DNA from: Pleurocapsa sp. PCC 7319 | Lineage (GTDB): Bacteria > Cyanobacteriota > Cyanobacteriia > Cyanobacteriales > Xenococcaceae | Reading direction: 5' to 3' | DNA: 64,000 nt | Assembly (NCBI RefSeq): GCF_000332195.1 | Contig: NZ_KB235922.1 | Location: 2,504,211 to 2,568,210 of the forward strand | Part shown: piece by piece, positions 34,184-48,208 of the stretch | Position numbering within the stretch: position 1 is the first letter of the stretch | How the letters are laid out: every line of letters starts with the position of its first letter | Program-made: the position numbers and the translations under genes | The notes under the pieces: model-generated | Database searches by the model: none | What the model saw: only the letters and a program-made list of their open reading frames with translations | What the model was told of the DNA's origin: nothing

Positions 34184-34719
34184 CTTCTTATATTAGTCAT
34201 GGTATTAGTTATGGAATCATTGACACGGATAAAAAACTCCCAAGCTAATAATTTTGAGAAAAGCTTGGGGAAAGATCATTGGATCTAAAACAAATATTTA
34301 ATCAGAATTGAGTGACTTTTCGCCGATTACCTCAGACCGTTTTGATGAAGGATTGCGCCTTCCCTCGGTAAAAGTTAAGTGGAGGAAGCGATAAAAACTC
34401 CACAACGATTAGTTTACTCTGAACTGTCCGAAAACCTGGCGATCGCTCTCCTTCAGTTTCCAGCAATGGGTCACAACGGTATAACTCCCATCCAGTACAA
34501 TATTCTTTATTCTTTATACTATCTAATATATTATGGGAAATTATTAAGAGCAACTTCTGTCATAAGTTGTATTATTTTAGCGGTTATTTTATTAAATTTT
34601 TAATCGTTTTGTTAAAAAAATAGACTTGAAAAATAGATAATTTGAGAGATATAAGCGGAACAATCTTCTCAATCTAAATCTAGATTATAGCTGCGGTAAG
34701 ATTCTGGATAGTTAATATT
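34184..34719. other. Intergenic region with a hairpin and weak ORFs
   Basis: A hairpin CCCAAGCT / AGCTTGGG at 34237-34265 has a T-tract only on the minus strand (AAAAAACTC on the plus side). Overlapping open frames on both strands (34332-34603) have no family resemblance and no good ribosome site. I do not call a gene here. The 3' part should hold the promoter of the hybrid kinase. Confidence 0.4.
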
Positions 34720-41295: not shown

Positions 41296-41796
41296 TTGCA
41301 CTTATCTGAGCAAGAACAAATGTACCGTAAAACTAGCCAGTCGGAGCTTACCCCAGAAAATTTTGAATTACCCTTTGAAAGTAAGTTGTCATCAGAAAAC
41401 CGATGGGTAATTATGGCAGAGTTAATTCCTTGGTCAGATTTTGAGTCAGAATATGCAGAAAATTTCTCAGAAACAATGGGAGCAATAGCCAAACCATTTC
41501 GGATGGCATTGGGGGCATTAATTATTAAAGAAAAATTAGGAATAAGCGATAGAGAAACTGTAGAGCAAATAAGGGAAAATCCTTATTTACAGTATTTTCT
41601 AGGGATGTCAGACTATAGCAATCAAGCCCCATTTGATGCCTCAATGATGGTTTATTTTAGAGAAAGAATAGACCTGGATTTAGTTAATAAAATCAATATA
41701 AAAATGGTAAATAATCTCCGAGAGAAAGAGGAGGAAGAAACAGAAAAAAAAACGAAAAAGAAGAAGTTAAATCAATTAAAAATCAAGGAAAGTTAA
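41296..41796 (+). CDS. IS transposase, upstream frame (orfA)
   Basis: 166 aa. NRWVIMAELIPWSDFESEYA, FRMALGALIIKEKLGISDRE and QIRENPYLQYFLGMSDYSNQ match the N-terminal domain of a common cyanobacterial IS5/IS1182-type DDE transposase. It lacks the catalytic residues, which lie in the next frame. Near its end is a run of nine A (41744-41752) read in frame as AAA AAA, followed by a Lys-rich out-of-register tail. A -1 slip on that run would join it to orfB. The upstream ATG at 41326-41328 (MYRKTSQ) is the more usual start for the family than 41296. Confidence 0.8.
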   Translation: MHLSEQEQMYRKTSQSELTPENFELPFESKLSSENRWVIMAELIPWSDFESEYAENFSETMGAIAKPFRMALGALIIKEKLGISDRETVEQIRENPYLQYFLGMSDYSNQAPFDASMMVYFRERIDLDLVNKINIKMVNNLREKEEEETEKKTKKKKLNQLKIKES

Positions 41797-41843
41797 TATT
41801 AGATGCTACTTGCGCTCCTGGGGATATAAGTTATCCCAATGAT

Positions 41844-42797
41844 TTGGGAATATTAAATCAAGCCAGACGACAAACCGAAAAAATTCTAGATTCTCTTTAT
41901 AAAACTTGTCAAACAAAGAAAGTAAAAAAGCCAAGGACTTATAGAAAGAAAGCGAGAAAAGATTATTTGAAAGTTGCGAAGAAACGTCGTCCATCTCGAC
42001 AAGAAAGAAGCTCGGCAGTCGCCAAACAATTACAATACATCAAAAGAAATTTATCTCACATAGAGAATTTAGTTAATTCCGAGGCTGATTTAAGTAGTCT
42101 ATCTCCAAGCCAATATAAAATGTTGTTGGTAGTTACAGAAGTTTATCGTCAACAATTGTGGATGTATGAGAATCAATCCAACAGAATTGACGATAGAATC
42201 GTCAGTATAACTCAACCTCATATCCGTCCTATCGTCAGAGGAAAAGCAGGAAAAACTGTGGAATTCGGAGCAAAAATTTCAGTAAGCTGTTTTGACCAAT
42301 ATGTATTTTTAGATCATTTGAGTTGGGATAACTTTAATGAATCAGGGGATTTAAAAACACAAGTAGAAGCCTATAAAAACTTCACTGGCTACTATCCATC
42401 CTCAGTTCATGTAGATAAAATTTATCGCAATAGAGAGAATCGAACTTGGTGTAAAGACCGAGGTATTAGAATCAGTGGACCACCATTGGGAAGACCACCT
42501 AAAAATGTTAGTAAATCAACTAAAAAACAAGCTAGAGATGATGAAAGATTTCGTAATGCTATTGAGGGAAAATTCGGACAAGCAAAACGACGTTATGGAC
42601 TTAACTGTATCATGGCAAAACTCTCAAAGACAGCAGAAACTTCTATTGCCGTTACTTTTTTAGTTATCAATCTTTCCACCCTGCTCAGGCAGGTTAGCTG
42701 TCTTTTTTTGTCTTTATTTCTGAATACCTATAAATTCGGCTCGATTACTGACTTTTTTATTATTAAAACTGATATTAAAGTCAAATTACTAACATAA
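41844..42797 (+). CDS. IS transposase, downstream catalytic frame (orfB)
   Basis: 317-aa open frame in -1 register to orfA. The frame is open further upstream to the A-run and reads LILDATCAPGDISYPNDLGI just before the annotated TTG, so the first catalytic Asp (LDATCAP) belongs to it. Second Asp is in SVHVDKIYRNREN and the Glu in AIEGKFGQAKRRYGL. Independent initiation at 41844 would lose the first Asp. Hence the active protein needs a -1 frameshift, or the copy is broken by an indel in the A-run. Confidence 0.8.
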   Translation: MGILNQARRQTEKILDSLYKTCQTKKVKKPRTYRKKARKDYLKVAKKRRPSRQERSSAVAKQLQYIKRNLSHIENLVNSEADLSSLSPSQYKMLLVVTEVYRQQLWMYENQSNRIDDRIVSITQPHIRPIVRGKAGKTVEFGAKISVSCFDQYVFLDHLSWDNFNESGDLKTQVEAYKNFTGYYPSSVHVDKIYRNRENRTWCKDRGIRISGPPLGRPPKNVSKSTKKQARDDERFRNAIEGKFGQAKRRYGLNCIMAKLSKTAETSIAVTFLVINLSTLLRQVSCLFLSLFLNTYKFGSITDFFIIKTDIKVKLLT

Positions 42798-42923: not shown

Positions 42924-42974
42924 TCACCTTTCTTGCTCAATTCTTTGATACTTTCTTAACCTACCAATTTCAAT
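42924..42974 (-). repeat. Duplicated sequence, copy 1, downstream of mazF
   Basis: Reads IEIGRLRKYQRIEQER-stop, followed by TGAGCAAGAAGAAATC. Copy 2 at 43643-43720 reads VEIGRLEKYGKEEKV-stop, followed by the same 16-mer. The two copies bracket mazEF. It directly follows the mazF stop codon. Confidence 0.55.
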
Positions 42975-43326
42975 CAATATTTAATAATTGCTGTAGCGAT
43001 TTTTGTACTCGATCACGATCATCTGTTGCCAACTTGCCTATTTTTTTGATTACTAAAGCATCATCCAGAGTAAATAACTTCATTCTGACAATCGATTTGG
43101 CTTTTAATCCCGCACTCTCTAAATCTGTTATCGCTTCATCTAATACCCAAGGTGCATGAGTCGCTGTGGTAATCATTGCCATCACACTTTTTTGAGTCCA
43201 TTTGTTAAATTTCGTCCCATCCGAAATCACTAAAGCTGGACGTTTTTTTGCCGCCGAACTATCTGTAAATGGAAACGGAACCACTACCACCTCAAATTGC
43301 TTATAAGTCACTGTATGCTTCCTCAT
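42970..43326 (-). CDS. MazF/PemK-family toxin
   Basis: Ribonuclease toxin of a type II toxin-antitoxin pair, expected to cut mRNA. 118 aa: FEVVVVPFPFTDSSAAKKRPALVIS is the PemK/MazF signature (Arg of KKRPALV is the conserved catalytic-site residue) and VMAMITTATH follows in the next core strand. Its start lies inside the end of the antitoxin gene (26-nt overlap), typical for translational coupling. It is at the edge of the remains of a plasmid-like replication module, where such pairs often act in maintenance. Confidence 0.88.
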   Translation of the reverse strand: MRKHTVTYKQFEVVVVPFPFTDSSAAKKRPALVISDGTKFNKWTQKSVMAMITTATHAPWVLDEAITDLESAGLKAKSIVRMKLFTLDDALVIKKIGKLATDDRDRVQKSLQQLLNID

Positions 43327-43543
43327 CCGCCTCTGATGACCATTCTCCCAAAGTCGCTGCCACTGACTCTAGATATTCCCAATCTACTGGTGATACTTTC
43401 TTCAACACTACCTTTTCATCCTCTATTTCAAAGATTATGCGATCTCCTTTTTCAATTGCTAGTTTTTCTCTTACTGCTTGGGGAATCGTCGCTTGATACT
43501 TTTGAGTTACTTTGGAAGTTAGTTTGATTTTAGCTCTGGTCAT
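43301..43543 (-). CDS. AbrB/MazE-type antitoxin
   Basis: 80 aa with an N-terminal swapped-hairpin AbrB DNA-binding domain: KVTQKYQATIPQAVREKLAI followed by GDRIIFEIEDEKVVLKK. The acidic C-terminus (EWSSEADEEAYSDL) should wrap the toxin. It precedes and overlaps mazF; the pair normally represses its own promoter. Confidence 0.88.
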   Translation of the reverse strand: MTRAKIKLTSKVTQKYQATIPQAVREKLAIEKGDRIIFEIEDEKVVLKKVSPVDWEYLESVAATLGEWSSEADEEAYSDL

Positions 43544-43642: not shown

Positions 43643-43720
43643 TTAGACTTTCTCCTCTTTGCCATACTTCTCTAATCGACCAATTTCCACCCATTCTTCA
43701 ACCATTTCCAGCTTCACCAT
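43643..43720 (-). repeat. Duplicated sequence, copy 2, upstream of mazE
   Basis: A 25-codon frame, MVKLEMVEEWVEIGRLEKYG plus five residues and stop, then ATGAGCAAGAAGAAATC. Related to copy 1 at 42924-42974. It could be the end of a decayed small gene of the replication module. The gap 43544-43876 contains only this, the VapE tail and the heptamer array. Confidence 0.5.
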
Positions 43721-43732
43721 CTATTGGTCACT

Positions 43733-43843
43733 TCAACTCGATATAAGAGTAAGACTATCTTTCATCTCCGTCAGTTGAGCGATGCTCATCTCGACTCTAT
43801 TACTTACACCATACTTTTCTTGGATATAGGCGAGCGCTTTACT
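43733..43843 (-). pseudogene. Detached C-terminal tail of the VapE-like primase gene
   Basis: 36 codons, SKALAYIQEKYGVSNRVEMS followed by IAQLTEMKDSLTLISS and a stop. Many cyanobacterial replication and recombination proteins end in a small domain of the form LGW(S/T)xxxxxxYLxxxYGxxSRxxLTxxQLxxF. The VapE-like ORF stops with VRRLG immediately on the other side of the four-helix-bundle element. Joining VRRLG to SKALAYIQEKYG restores this domain. I infer that the element inserted there. The motif is recalled from memory. Confidence 0.6.
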
Positions 43844-43846
43844 TCA

Positions 43847-44340
43847 GGTAGGAGGTAGTAGGTAGGAGGTAGTAGGTTATTTTTGTTTGAGTTTTTTGGT
43901 GATGGCTACTAGAATTTTAATAATTACTTCTATCTCTTCTAACATATCGGAAAATTTGTTTTTTGGAACTAGATCATTTTCAAGCATTAATTCTATCCAA
44001 TACTTAGTTTCACTGGCTTCTTTTAAAGCTATTAAATACTTGGATAAAAAGTCTTTATCTGATTGAGCATAAACTCCTTCTGATATATTAGCTCCAATAC
44101 TAGTACCGCTTCTCAAAAACTGTTTTGACAGAATAGCACAAGCACTATTAAAGTGATTTCTTTCATTTATTTCCGAATAAGCCTTTATTACTCTACTAGC
44201 AAAGAGTTTAGTTCTTTGTTGAATTGTAATGTTATTATTGTTCACAAATAAAATAGTAAGTGATATTTCTATTTTATCTTGTAGTAGGTAATCAGTACCT
44301 ACTACCTACTACCTACTACCTACTACTTACTACCTATTCC
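43847..44340 (-). mobile_element. Four-helix-bundle element bounded by inverted heptamer arrays
   Basis: Left boundary: four heptamers GGTAGGA/GGTAGTA alternating (43847-43874) plus GGT. Right boundary: TACCTAC four times, TACTTAC and TACCTAT (44296-44337). The arrays are inverted relative to each other. Between them is one gene for a four-helix-bundle protein and short non-coding flanks, including GTAGTAGGTAATCAGTACCTACTAC-like inverted sequence at the right inner edge. It interrupts the VapE-like gene. A deletion derivative lies at 47837-47954. No transposase or recombinase motif is present. Confidence 0.65.
43877..44245 (-). CDS. Four-helix-bundle protein (S23/TIGR02436 family)
   Basis: 122 aa, almost all helical: TKLFASRVIKAYSEI, ILSKQFLRSGTSIGANISEG (the family signature QxxRSxxSIxANIxEG), YLIALKEASETKYWIELMLE and a last helix to KKLKQK. 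Relatives are encoded in intervening sequences of bacterial 23S rRNA genes, and the same fold is used by Avd, the accessory protein of diversity-generating retroelements. There is no reverse transcriptase or rRNA gene here. The stop codon abuts the left heptamer array. Probably binds nucleic acid or a partner needed for movement of the element; inference. Confidence 0.85.
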   Translation of the reverse strand: MNNNNITIQQRTKLFASRVIKAYSEINERNHFNSACAILSKQFLRSGTSIGANISEGVYAQSDKDFLSKYLIALKEASETKYWIELMLENDLVPKNKFSDMLEEIEVIIKILVAITKKLKQK

Positions 44341-46884
44341 CTAGCCTAATCTTCTAACCTGGTGAGTTATTTGCTCCTTCAATTCTAAAAACAGATTTTG
44401 ATTTTGATTTTGATTGAAAATATTTCCCTGCTCTGTCTTCTCTATTTGAGTCAGGCGATTGCGCTCCGCGCAGTGGCAGAGCCAATCGCATTGAGCAGAA
44501 GCCAGATAGTTTTCTCTCAGCCATAAAACTTCGGCTGCGGTAATTTTGCCACAGGCGTATAAATTGATTAGCTCTGCCTTGGTACTACAGGCAAACATTC
44601 TTTCTACTACTTTTCTCGCTCTGTTTTTGATTGTATATTCGTCTTTGCTCGGATGAGGGTAATCTGACCATGTTAAGGGACGATCTATACCTTCACCAAC
44701 AGGTATAGCAGTAGGTATAGATTCCTCATTCTGTATGGGTTTAACTCTTGTTTCTCTATTGCCTTCTACAGAGTTTATATTTTCACTATTTACTACTTCT
44801 CTTACCTCTAATTTTCTAGTTTGAGAATTAGGTGTAGTAGGTATAGTAGGTATAGACAAGCTTTGCTGTGACTGGCTTTCAGCCTGCAATACCTCTGCTA
44901 TACCTCCCGAAGGTATAGTCGAAGCCTCCTCCCAAACCACTTGCCTTTTTCCTCGATGTAATTTCTGTCCCACTTTGCGCCAATTTAACATCTGGAGAAT
45001 ATTGGCTACCCGCATTTGTTCTCTACGACCGATCTTATTCAGCTCAAAATCAAATACATCCAGCAGTACTTGTGATATTGATACCCCTGTTCTATGGCGA
45101 ATATAATCAGCAACGAAACCTGCCCATTCATCTATTATTTGGAAACGAGAATTATTGTTGAGATTTCTTTTTTCCTCTTCTTTTGACAACCACCATGTCT
45201 CTCCTTCCCGATATGCCACCACAGCAGAAGCCCATATCGCGTCTCTTTCCTCAAATAATCGTTTGGTGTCTATTTCTTTTTTCTCTACGGGAATAACCCA
45301 ATAACGTCTGTTTCCTGTTGAATCTACTAAGAAACTCGAATCGTTAACCGAACCCACTATTATTGAGTGACGCAGATAGTCTTTAGTAGTACGTGCATAG
45401 GGTTCGCGAAAGGTATCTTTTCGACAACTCAGAAACGCTTTTAAATCCCCTGCCTGTCTTTTGGAAAATATCTTATCTATTTCTCCCCACTCCTGAATCC
45501 ACGATTTATGCAGGATTAACAAGTCATCTTTATCTTTTCCTGATCTCATCGAATCCCCAAACCATTCTCCTGCCAAGATATCAAAGAATGTTGATTTACC
45601 AATCCCTTGTTCTCCCTGAAGCACTAGTGTATTGTCATGCTTGCACCCTGGAGCATAGACTCTCGCTACCGCTGCTATTAATGTCTTCTTCAGAAAAATA
45701 TCGTAAATCTTATCCGATGTACCAAAAAACCTACTTGATAATGAATTGATATCCGCCAGCTCACAAGAGCGAGAAACTTTATCTAAATATTCAGCTACAG
45801 GATTGTAGGCGTTTTCTTCTGCTACTTTTGTACATACATCTATCGCTTTTGTCTTATTTACCTCCAGGCGATCATGTTCTGCCAAATGCAGATAAAACCG
45901 CTCTAAATTGAACTGCTTCTCATCCAACTCAATCTGCATTTCTAGTTCGTTCAAGCGTAAGCGATCACTATATTTATCCCTTACATAATCTAGTAGGGCT
46001 GCGGTAGCTGTATTTCTTGACTGCATTCTTGACTGCATTTTTGAAGCGTTTTTCTGTGGCGAGATAGATTTGAGCCATTCTTTGTATGGCGTGATATTTT
46101 CGATTACTTCTTCTAAGGCTTCGACCCCTTGATTTACTACCAAATCGTCCAGTCCTTTCGTGGCTTCGGTGTATTCCCAAGTTCCAACCCCAACAATACA
46201 TCCCGCTCTCTGAGCAAGATATCCAATGGTTTTGAGTGCCTCTTGTACCTGGGGTTTGATAATCACATCCGAATCAAACAGTAGATGGATTGCTCTACCA
46301 TTTGCCAAAAATGGGGCTAGAGTCGGTATCGCCTTTAGCGATCGCTTAACTTTTCCGTTCCAAACTCCCGTTAAACATAAGCCCACCAATCCATTCGCCA
46401 ACAAACAACCCGCTTTCTTCGCTCCCTCTGTTACTTCGATGGGTATTTGAGGGTTATTATGTATCCATTTCCAAAACCCTTTGTCCAGTCTTGATTCGTC
46501 GATATCTTCTGGCAAAATCGGCACATTGTATCTTTTGGCTATCTTTTCCCATGCTGTTTTGTCGGGAATCAACAGAATTACTTCATTTTCCTGTCCTTTG
46601 GGAAACGTAAAATACTTTACTGCTTTATCACCATCTGGAAACTGGATTGGTTTATTGGGCTTGAATTGTCCAAATTCTCTTTGTTGTCCCGTTTCTAAAT
46701 CTACCCCTTTTACGTACCATCCTGGACTCCCCAAATAATTGCTCCAGTTCAGTAACTTGGCAATTTCTTTTTTGTCCTCGATACTCTTGGGATTCAGCTT
46801 GACTATCTCTTCTGAAACCCCACTCCCAGCAACCCATTCGCCAGCGTGCTTAGAATCAATGGTTGGTGCAAATGCATTACTCAT
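44341..46884 (-). CDS. DUF3854/VapE-type primase-helicase (C-terminus lost)
   Basis: 847-aa replication protein of the kind found on cyanobacterial plasmids and phage-like islands. The N-terminal 300 residues form a DUF3854/Toprim-like primase region (IPIEVTEGAKKAGCLLANGL, IHLLFDSDVI). The VapE-type helicase domain (about 370-600) has Walker A LQGEQGIGKSTFFDILAGEW, KSWIQEWGEIDKI and the arginine-finger region STGNRRYWVIP. A GC-rich HIP1-like repeat is absorbed in frame near the C-terminus (CDWLCHCAERNRL, 44452-44500). The stop lies at the edge of the four-helix-bundle element, with the likely missing tail at 43733-43843. The start overlaps the stop of a 32-aa gene (ATGA). Confidence 0.85.
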   Translation of the reverse strand: MSNAFAPTIDSKHAGEWVAGSGVSEEIVKLNPKSIEDKKEIAKLLNWSNYLGSPGWYVKGVDLETGQQREFGQFKPNKPIQFPDGDKAVKYFTFPKGQENEVILLIPDKTAWEKIAKRYNVPILPEDIDESRLDKGFWKWIHNNPQIPIEVTEGAKKAGCLLANGLVGLCLTGVWNGKVKRSLKAIPTLAPFLANGRAIHLLFDSDVIIKPQVQEALKTIGYLAQRAGCIVGVGTWEYTEATKGLDDLVVNQGVEALEEVIENITPYKEWLKSISPQKNASKMQSRMQSRNTATAALLDYVRDKYSDRLRLNELEMQIELDEKQFNLERFYLHLAEHDRLEVNKTKAIDVCTKVAEENAYNPVAEYLDKVSRSCELADINSLSSRFFGTSDKIYDIFLKKTLIAAVARVYAPGCKHDNTLVLQGEQGIGKSTFFDILAGEWFGDSMRSGKDKDDLLILHKSWIQEWGEIDKIFSKRQAGDLKAFLSCRKDTFREPYARTTKDYLRHSIIVGSVNDSSFLVDSTGNRRYWVIPVEKKEIDTKRLFEERDAIWASAVVAYREGETWWLSKEEEKRNLNNNSRFQIIDEWAGFVADYIRHRTGVSISQVLLDVFDFELNKIGRREQMRVANILQMLNWRKVGQKLHRGKRQVVWEEASTIPSGGIAEVLQAESQSQQSLSIPTIPTTPNSQTRKLEVREVVNSENINSVEGNRETRVKPIQNEESIPTAIPVGEGIDRPLTWSDYPHPSKDEYTIKNRARKVVERMFACSTKAELINLYACGKITAAEVLWLRENYLASAQCDWLCHCAERNRLTQIEKTEQGNIFNQNQNQNLFLELKEQITHQVRRLG

Positions 46885-46979
46885 TCTGCACCAACCATTT
46901 CATTCAAGCTATTTTCTTGTTCCTGTGCAAAACCCAAGGTGCAGTATTTCACACCACCTTTTACAATGTAATTAATCAT
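46881..46979 (-). CDS. 32-residue protein translationally coupled to VapE
   Basis: Reads MINYIVKGGVKYCTLGFAQE followed by QENSLNEMVGAE. A strong ribosome site (AAGGAGG) stands 8 nt before the ATG at 46979. Its TGA overlaps the VapE ATG as ATGA, the classic coupling arrangement, which argues that it is real. No known domain. It may serve mainly to deliver ribosomes to the primase gene. Confidence 0.65.
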   Translation of the reverse strand: MINYIVKGGVKYCTLGFAQEQENSLNEMVGAE

Positions 46980-47077
46980 TAGCGTTCCTCCTTATGGAAC
47001 TAATGTTGTATAAGAGCGGTCGCGCCATTCCGTCCAAAGAATTGCGATCGCTTTTCACATGAAAAAATTACGAAAAT

Positions 47078-47263
47078 TTAGCTTTTCTTTTCATCATTAT
47101 TTTTTTCGATGATGGAAGAATTTAATTGATTGGTTAATTCTTGTTCAAGAGTTTCCTTCATCATGAACTGAAGTTGTGCGCTCAAAGGTCTGAACTGCTT
47201 TTCACAATACTTTTTGAAGTCTTCCAACAAATCTTCAGGAACAGTGATATTTATTCTGGTCAT
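47078..47263 (-). CDS. Ribbon-helix-helix (CopG/Arc-like) DNA-binding protein
   Basis: From the ATG at 47263 the protein has 61 residues: MTRINITVPEDLLEDFKKYC is a standard RHH strand-helix start, then SAQLQFMMKETLEQEL forms the second helix. Longer in-frame starts (47284, 47308) add sequence not found in RHH proteins. It is upstream of the small gene and VapE on the same strand, so it is a likely repressor or copy-control protein of the replication module. Confidence 0.75.
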   Translation of the reverse strand: MTRINITVPEDLLEDFKKYCEKQFRPLSAQLQFMMKETLEQELTNQLNSSIIEKNNDEKKS

Positions 47264-47567
47264 TTTTCCTTTGTATTCAACCATTACTAGAACCATAGCC
47301 TTACACATATAGTGTCGCCTATTGATTCTTTTTTACGAAAAACTACATATCAAGTATATACTAAATATTAATTTTGTGTTGACAATACACACTCGGTAAG
47401 TATAAAATTGGATAAGAAACCTAGAGTAGATATCAACTCCATCAACACAAAGATTAGAAGACTAATCATTACATCGCCTTCTATAAGACTTGAAATCAAA
47501 AAGGAGAGCAGCCACCGTCCAAAGTATCTGCTCTCCTGAACCTCAATCAAATTAAGGTATTTTTATA

Positions 47568-48128
47568 ATGACACAACAATTAACTGTCAAGCCAGTTTCA
47601 CAGACTCAAACTTGTTCACAATGCTCTCATTTCAATGACTACAACGAGTCAAATGGAAGGGGGTGGTGCCAACTTTTCGGACAACAAGCCAGAAAGCACC
47701 ATCAAAGAACAAACGATTGCGATCTCTTTGCTGATACCGATCCAATTGATGCTCCTCATCCTGAGTTTGCTATTGACAGCACCGTTAAAGTTATCGATCC
47801 TGATGAACACCATACAGAGTGGGCTTCCTTTTCATAGGTAGAAGGTAGGAGGTAGGAGGTAGGAGGTGATTTTTGTTTGAGTTTTTTAGTATTTCTATTG
47901 GACGTTGTAGCAGGTCTTGATTACCTACTACCCACTACCTTCTACCCACTACCTGAAGCTAACGCCGAACTCTACCGCAGTACTGAGGCTTATCTCTCTG
48001 AACCTAGCTGGTATTACGAATTAGCTGGAATCAACTATGAGCCTAATTTTAAGTCAATTTCGATAGCTGAGAATGATATCTGCGAGGCTAACCAATCTCA
48101 TCTTATCCGCACCACAGACATCTTTTAA
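47568..48128 (+). pseudogene. Cysteine-rich cyanobacterial protein gene split by a mini-element
   Basis: The 5' part (89 codons to a TAG at 47835) encodes CSQCSHFNDYNESNGRGWCQ, LFGQQARKHHQRTNDCDLF and STVKVIDPDEHHTEWASF. The 3' part resumes in the same frame after 47954 with ANAELYRSTEAYLSEPSWYY, ELAGINYEP and AENDICEANQSHLIRTTDIF. Both halves resemble consecutive segments of one small cyanobacterial family that has a CxxC zinc-like start, a KVID..EHHTEW core and a (T)xDIF end. The split point is exactly the 118-bp heptamer mini-element. Family recalled from memory; function unknown. Confidence 0.62.
47837..47954. mobile_element. Internally deleted copy of the four-helix-bundle element
   Basis: Left array: GGTAGAA then GGTAGGA three times (47837-47864). 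Right array: TACCTAC, TACCCAC, TACCTTC, TACCCAC (47922-47949). The 57-bp core contains TTTTTGTTTGAGTTTTTT, identical to the 3' end of the four-helix-bundle gene at 43880-43897. It then matches the far inner edge of the full element (ATTTCTATT...TTGTAG.AGGT...TACCTACTACC). About 360 bp of interior are missing. It has lost all coding capacity. Confidence 0.72.
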
Positions 48129-48208
48129 CTAATCATTCTTTGGGCAATTGCACTTATCGCAGTTGCCCTACTAGCTTTTGCTACTCACTTCATTACTCGG
48201 CTCAACCC

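Follow-up and report, generated by a model that had tools for sequence, protein, structure and literature searches.

What is an S23/IVP gene doing at the stop of a VapE-like gene, enclosed by tandem heptamers on one side and by their inverted counterparts on the other? This arrangement occurs in Pleurocapsa sp. PCC 7319, within a stretch of 64,000 nucleotides which we analyzed as a whole (the window). The heptamer arrays could be passive repeats or the ends of something that moves, and between them lies a gene for a single small protein. We consider it probable, if far from assured, that positions 43846-44343 are one copy of a single-gene mobile unit without a transposase, a counterpart outside rRNA of the intervening sequences (IVS) of 23S rRNA. 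This estimate includes the binding of a hairpin by the protein and its joining by host enzymes, as proposed below.

A single-gene unit within a VapE-like gene

The initial annotation had placed one four-helix-bundle gene between inverted heptamer arrays at the VapE-like stop, and the arrays and profile searches bear this out (Table 1). The gene matched PF05635 (E 2.5e-22; 79.5 bits against a cut-off of 33.8) and TIGR02436 (E 1.3e-26; 92.9 bits against 24). The AlphaFold model, computed from 40 aligned sequences, contains four helices with a mean pLDDT of 93.1. Foldseek returned 2RLD, of the S23 family, as its top solved structure, followed by 2GSC. Family membership is thus given by both profile cut-offs together with the four-helix-bundle model and the match to 2RLD. 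Avd (4DWL) and ribonucleoprotein chains of diversity-generating retroelements (DGRs; 8UB7/8UBE) ranked after 2GSC, with weak E values of 0.16-0.93 and only 13-16% identity to the IVP protein. Between the arrays, the IVP gene is the sole open reading frame (ORF) of at least 60 amino acids in the ORF listing, leaving no candidate transposase or recombinase of that size between the arms. Basic proteins are common among its relatives (calculated pI above 8.5 in 116 of 167). Comparison of copies indicates purifying selection on the gene, with a median dN/dS of 0.17 and a maximum of 0.45 (83 usable of 160 pairs, which overlap and are not independent). From shuffles, 0.11 occurrences of GGTAGTAGGTAG with at most one mismatch would be expected; the window contains 16.

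A paralogue without the insert enabled reconstruction of the site before insertion. The window VapE-like gene terminates in QVRRLG*. Its paralogue in this genome, on contig C2 (G000:C2; 86.7% identical over 847 aa), continues past VRRLG as QVRRLGWSKQKAIAYIQERYGVSNRVEMSIAQLREMKDCLALMSS*, with VRRLG running directly into WSKQKAIAYIQ. The segment beyond the element in the window is therefore the displaced C-terminus of the VapE-like gene, in line with the prediction that a lost SKALAYIQ-type end resumes on the far side. No heptamer array is present at the C2 junction, and by eye at most ~7 target bases are unaccounted for at the VapE-like site.

A second insertion lies 3.5 kb from the first. One end of this mini-element (the left arm and ~25 bp of the 3' end of the gene) is identical to the full element at 48 of 52 bp, while the other end consists of a piece of the 5' leader and the second arm. 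Its alignment to both ends of the full element identifies it as an internally deleted copy, which may have arrived in this shortened form or lost its middle part once inserted. The paralogous empty site on C2 again contains no heptamer array, and ~15 target bases appear by eye to be missing. Read by eye, neither insertion shows a target-site duplication or a terminal inverted repeat (TIR), and both end at their arms. The surrounding DNA is itself duplicated: window 43700-48150 and G000:C2:1-6000 are paralogous stretches whose matching DNA is 86-90% identical, the former carrying both heptamer insertions and the latter neither.

Table 1. Parts of the element, its deleted copy and the interrupted genes (positions in the window)
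Feature	Position	Strand	Description
Outer arm, gene-downstream	43846-43877		Period-7 array GGTAGGA/GGTAGTA, sequence AGGTAGGAGGTAGTAGGTAGGAGGTAGTAGGT
IVP/S23 four-helix-bundle gene	43877-44245	-	Intact, GTG start, 122 aa, calculated pI 9.2
5' leader of IVP gene	44246-44295	-	With the arm can form a small local hairpin, GTAGTAGGT...ACCTACTAC
Outer arm, gene-upstream	44296-44343		Inverted TACCTAC/CTACTAC period-7 array; TACCTAC units 44296-44336
Displaced C-terminus of VapE-like gene	43733-43846 (about)	-	SKALAYIQEKYGVSNRVEMSIAQLTEMKDSLTLISS (SKALAYIQEKYG...LISS*); compared with C2 paralogue
Host gene, DUF3854 + VapE-like	44341-46884	-	PF05272 (E 4e-74), PF12965 (E 8e-30); truncated at VRRLG by the insertion
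Mini-element	47836-47953	-	118 bp; the two arms, a piece of the 5' leader and the final ~25 bp of the IVP gene
Second host gene	47568-48128	+	Interrupted by mini-element; uninterrupted paralogue G000:C2:4876-5340

Inverted arms across IVP genes

We then surveyed the flanks of IVP genes elsewhere. Arms were scored by inverted local alignment between the two 250-bp flanks, with a score of at least 30 counted as arms and positions shifted by 870 bp serving as controls. Copies that shared a gene key (100-130 bases) with another were dropped, whereas near-identical copies with different keys were kept. Single fragments below 200 bp, copies with too little flank and, for the pooled set, loci L185-L214 were removed before counting. 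PF05635 matches were found in all 13 genomes of the genus, including 11 in Pleurocapsa sp. PCC 7319 itself, and in 0 of 14 control genomes. The 48 genus copies were reduced to 46 by the flank filter, and 36 of these had inverted arms (shifted positions, 0 of 91; direct orientation, 5 of 46). Across the phylum, 163 of 386 genomes matched at E ≤1e-3, 142 of them above the cut-off. Arms flanked 39 of 53 matches examined there, a set made of the best-scoring loci and 20 hand-picked places (several from one genome, G130), fragments included (shifted, 1 of 103; direct, 9 of 53).

Arms were also found beyond cyanobacteria. Among plasmid loci, 10 of 12 had arms, and the direct score was above the inverted one in 5 of 12, as it was at a few genus and cross-phylum loci. 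Armed plasmid records came from Bernardetia (Bacteroidota), Treponema saccharophilum (Spirochaetota), Monoglobus (Bacillota; its IVP reading frame contains a stop) and one of two Chlorohelix loci (Chloroflexota). A further six plasmid loci, including two near-copy pairs, gave four at threshold. A cross-phylum scan covered one genome per species, and the best 80 of 585 relatives were kept; together with three viral contigs, 87 matches yielded 84 genes with enough flank. Arms were present at 65 of the 84 (shifted, 0 of 155; direct, 15 of 84), with period 7 in 62 of 63 genes with a clear period. Metagenome bins are frequent in this set, and individual phylum labels may therefore be wrong. Two such metagenome-assembled genomes, assigned to Leptospiraceae and Gammaproteobacteria, hold IVP genes with 77% DNA identity and the same TTAATGG arms, reflecting either recent transfer between phyla or misbinning.

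Altogether, the pooled set comprised 186 copies, 145 of them armed. Period 7 prevailed (122 of 132 with a clear period), followed by period 8 (9) and period 9 (1), and the median distance between outer arm edges was 495 bp. Shifted controls reached the threshold at 1 of 349 positions. Arms from different loci paired with one another in 104 of 2072 genus and 93 of 665 cross-phylum combinations at threshold, as related lineages share heptamers.

Heptamer arrays as such do not generally come in inverted pairs. In a 464-kb sample of the Pleurocapsa genome (20 stretches and the window), 39 period-7 arrays passed our detector, and a single one was followed on its right, at no more than 1.2 kb, by an inverted counterpart. 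That sole inverted pair is the mini-element; the full element went uncounted, because its left array scores too low for the detector.

The units are also oriented. Read in the sense direction, the upstream arm is richer in G than in C in 123 of 145 armed copies. Where both neighbours run in one direction, the element lies in sense in 84 and in antisense in 16; for a further 35 armed copies the two neighbours are convergent or divergent, and for 10 one side has no call, neighbours being longest-ORF rather than gene-finder calls. In 33 copies (at a slightly earlier count of 81 armed copies) same-strand open frames touch the arms on both sides, and often one frame stops and the next starts at an arm. 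Plasmid IVP genes (L134, L136, L137, L138, L141 and L144) recur at defence-type gene junctions: type I restriction-modification (hsdS-IVP-hsdR), csx2-IVP-cas1, DUF1156-IVP-Swt1 (twice) and helicase-IVP-methyltransferase. The DUF1156-IVP-Swt1 order is found in two phyla, and its Gloeocapsa copy, which has no arms, is possibly domesticated.

A local 5' hairpin, as in the window leader, is enriched but not general among the copies: a local score of at least 16 was reached in 25 of 82 testable copies versus 63 of 817 cross pairs, and we rejected it as a universal feature. The same test on the downstream spacer gave 19 of 62 versus 84 of 617 cross pairs.

Movement of arms and gene as one unit

Empty sites delimit what has moved. 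In addition to the two paralogous sites on C2, nine genus copies have orthologous places without the element. Of 20 such places fetched, 17 were empty and 3 occupied. Flank homology in the 17 ends at most 2 bases from the upstream arm edge in 12 (-6 to -20 in the others) and at most 3 bases from the downstream edge in 11 (+5 to +41 in the others). The empty spacers are diverged, span 5-262 bp and in several cases hold other short heptamer arrays, as judged by eye. One of them (L199) contains inverted arms that enclose no gene and consist of the heptamers found at its occupied orthologue.

Arms also accompany genes to new places. Among pairs of copies at different sites, arm heptamers are shared (cross score at least 30) in 8 of 9 pairs with at least 85% gene identity, 15 of 30 at 75-85%, 32 of 213 at 70-75% and 39 of 1464 below 70%. 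Pairs with like flanks were excluded (7, 12, 12 and 3 in the respective bins), and those below 70% were sampled at 15%. In the single miss among the nine closest pairs, one arm lacks the length needed for scoring. The heptamer type has also been kept in four pairs of orthologous copies. An origin of the arms from local target sequence was rejected, as the paralogous empty sites lack the heptamer and arms track gene lineage; by eye, a similar heptamer is present in two of the empty orthologous spacers (L189 and L185).

A naked pair (L129/L130, genome G323) lies on one contig, 2.6 Mb apart and in opposite orientation, with genes 98.6% identical. At E 1e-10, BLAST aligns the two 3.3-kb loci only once, in a match that begins and ends inside the arms. 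Judged by such comparisons, arms differ between lineages yet accompany related genes to unrelated sites, and arms and gene behave as one unit which has entered heptamer-free sites. The initial proposal that the arrays are the ends of a moving unit thus holds for mobility by comparison, with reservations for arm-less copies; that the unit moves itself through its gene product is what we infer.

The same data bear on the idea that the arrays are pre-existing passive repeats, and that the gene spreads between them by homologous or slipped recombination wherever donor and target hold arrays of the same type. By eye, solitary arrays in the Pleurocapsa genome do consist of the same heptamer types as the arms, arrays occur without IVP genes, and several orthologous empty spacers hold other short arrays. 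However, neither paralogous empty site in this genome contains an array, and arms track the gene lineage across genomes. Solitary arrays also lack inverted partners, so that exchange would not yield inverted arms on both sides. We regard this explanation as improbable.

Transposases in trans provide another possible motor. In genome G012, a 576-bp unit with an 18-bp TIR is 99.8% identical at two sites; by eye, one is bordered by an exact 12-bp target repeat, CTATTAGGAGAG, and the other by a 12-bp repeat with two mismatches. Genome G317 holds a 550-bp unit, also 99.8% identical, with a TIR beginning GGGAGC and, by eye, 9- and 8-bp repeats. Copies in G130 and G198 lie between yet other ends resembling those of insertion sequences (IS). 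IVP units have multiplied inside these differing TIR pairs in all four genomes (L113-L119 in G130; L070 and L077 in G012; L123 and L124 in G317; L126 and L127 in G198) and seem to have been caught repeatedly by miniature inverted-repeat transposable elements (MITEs).

It could follow that gene and arms are always cargo of MITE-like elements, moved only by IS transposases, with the TIR-less copies being decayed. The naked pair argues otherwise, as homology there stops inside the arms on both sides, as do the window element and mini-copy, which end at their arms with no visible TIR or target repeat. Several kinds of IS-like ends occur, whereas most copies have heptamer arms. Moreover, the TIR of G012 is not found in a relative with 83% identity (L059), nor anywhere in its genome (G005) by exact search. 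We consider an exclusively passenger role unlikely.

A third explanation operates at the RNA level: an excised stem-loop RNA with its protein would insert into transcripts in sense and be fixed by a reverse transcriptase. This would fit the sense bias of 84 to 16, which selection alone can also produce. It would also fit the protein family and stem-loop plan common to rRNA IVS (PMC4990558), and the fold likeness to Avd, a partner of reverse transcriptase. The predicted fold of the element RNA is far better than that of shuffles (z -5.7), though long inverted arms would give such a fold in any case. Against it stand the absence of a sense excess of G-U mismatches in the arms (counted below) and the distribution of reverse transcriptases. 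With IVP counted at a best E below 1e-10, no Pfam RVT_1 match was found in 42 of 142 cyanobacterial IVP genomes, in which draft assembly can hide genes. We hold this to be the least probable of the three alternatives.

The same tally showed no Y1 transposase match in 30 of the 142 genomes and neither enzyme in 15; the Pleurocapsa genome has 11 scored Y1_Tnp matches. Reverse transcriptase and HUH transposase were both rejected as obligatory partners on these counts. IVP and reverse transcriptase genes do share genomes above expectation (100 of 142; Fisher p 3e-10), an overlap which genome size alone could give. Beside the window element, no reverse transcriptase gene was found among four other profiled ORFs (VapE-like, IS5-like, PemK-like and MazE-like), a subset of its neighbours. 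An IS5-family transposase model (positions 155-419) matches ORF 41844-42797, which is 1.05 kb away and does not bound the unit.

Our favoured reading can be set out in steps. The unit comprises inverted arrays of 7-bp (sometimes 8-bp) repeats, a short leader and one basic S23/IVP four-helix-bundle gene. Its arms would fold the single-stranded form into a long hairpin, which the protein may bind and protect, by analogy with the action of Avd on nucleic acid in DGRs. Host repair or replication enzymes would join this hairpin at breaks or replication forks, in many cases at the junctions of operons and in the orientation that lets the gene be read in sense. Slippage, and copying of one arm from the other, would keep the two arms similar at the DNA level. 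In several genomes, IS-like ends have also captured the unit, which a transposase then probably moved.

Several observations weigh against this reading. The S23/IVP protein is not known to have a catalytic residue or to be a recombinase. Arms at threshold are absent from 41 of the 186 pooled copies, some of which lie in operons, perhaps as domesticated genes. One member of the naked pair, L130, has one short arm and an own score of just 27, and IS-like ends enclose the G130 copies that make up three of the nine closest pairs, which are thus not all naked moves. For the recent G012 and G317 copies, TIRs and target repeats make movement by a transposase acting in trans probable, and the same holds for the copies between other ends in G130 and G198. 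Maintenance of the arms as an RNA stem was rejected, as G-U mismatches are no more frequent in sense than in antisense (121 versus 127; by copies, 46 versus 45); the lack of a sense preference makes homogenization at the DNA level more likely than selection at the RNA level. Period-7 arrays are as dense without IVP genes as with them: 20 per 200 kb in five IVP-less genomes (11 in G034, 8 in G078, and none in G026 or G194, at 40 kb each) versus 12 in five IVP-rich genomes, which also hold 7 period-8 arrays. IVP was accordingly rejected as the source of all heptamer arrays. Finally, the abstract of a study on the Coxiella rRNA element suggests that its S23 protein is not made (PMC4990558).

Array density differs strongly among cyanobacterial genomes (L165-L184), unlinked to IVP presence. 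Other features of the window neighbourhood include PemK/MazF-like toxin and MazE/AbrB-like antitoxin genes at 42970-43543 (-), adjoining the VapE-type gene. The IS5-like match belongs to a pair of ORFs in different frames at 41296-42797 (+); the second carries the match, and the first (41296-41796) may be the front part of the same gene. A CyVA-1 small RNA (RF02965) is located at 34421-34498 (-), with 73.9 bits against a gathering score of 41.4.

Relation to known systems

Extended beyond this locus, our reading would make S23/IVP genes a pan-bacterial class of self-spreading single-gene elements, with inverted tandem heptamer ends and, as sole product, a nucleic-acid-binding four-helix bundle without recombinase chemistry. 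The rRNA IVS would be the special case which landed in rRNA, and part of the bacterial heptamer repeats would be arms and deletion relics of such units. We offer this wider claim tentatively, as a possibility with the odds somewhat against it. Two puzzles meet here, the origin of rRNA IVS and that of heptamer arrays, as most examined IVP genes move with inverted arms outside rRNA. The ~500-bp unit is also small enough to put two questions to the test: can a protein lacking recombinase chemistry drive mobility, and what does an Avd-type fold do alone?

Our literature search, which lay outside most subscription papers and for some queries covered only the top results, found no link of S23/IVP genes to inverted heptamer arrays. 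In the available parts of two papers on heptamer arrays, no source for them is named (PMC4692102, PMC4679880). The former reports 70 and 75 inverted GGGAATC heptamer pairs in two Xanthomonas genomes and describes paired repeats as few in Nostoc and heptamers in general as unassociated with mobile elements. The latter raises transmission by some mobile element for the TAACTGA repeats of Beggiatoaceae. These repeats, together with the short tandemly repeated sequences (STRR) of cyanobacteria, resemble the arms in repeat length and in their often G-rich units. They differ in that most examined IVP genes are enclosed by an inverted pair, whereas solitary arrays in the Pleurocapsa genome lack inverted partners.

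MITEs and REP/RAYT systems (repetitive extragenic palindromes and their transposases) are likewise small hairpin-forming units with deletion derivatives, and like them the present unit shows no target duplication at its two best sites. Unlike them, it has no identified transposase partner, 30 of the 142 IVP genomes have no Y1 match, and its tandem-array ends vary by lineage. With Avd, to which a published account relates PF05635 (PMC10053308), the IVP protein has the four-helix-bundle fold in common, through which Foldseek finds 4DWL and the DGR chains. It differs in its low identity, in the lack of a reverse transcriptase inside the unit, and in the many IVP genomes without an RVT_1 match.

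The rRNA IVS of Coxiella and Leptospira, which have an S23/IVP ORF of their own, are close counterparts. As described in PMC4990558, the Coxiella 23S rRNA IVS is 428 nt long, carries its S23 ORF in the loop of a 28-bp stem formed from its inverted ends and is cut by RNase III; the function and origin of rRNA IVS are termed unclear there. The protein family (PF05635), the long stem that complementary ends build around the ORF, and size (428 nt there; the median of 495 bp between arm edges here) are all alike. No rRNA match was found in the window or at seven other loci, and the window element lies in a VapE-type gene rather than in 23S rRNA; it is therefore not filed as an IVS, despite the same family and plan. 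In contrast to the rRNA IVS, the present units reside in protein genes and operon junctions, their arms are tandem heptamer arrays, and they occur in several copies per genome (as in the 11 profile matches of Pleurocapsa) and as mini-copies.
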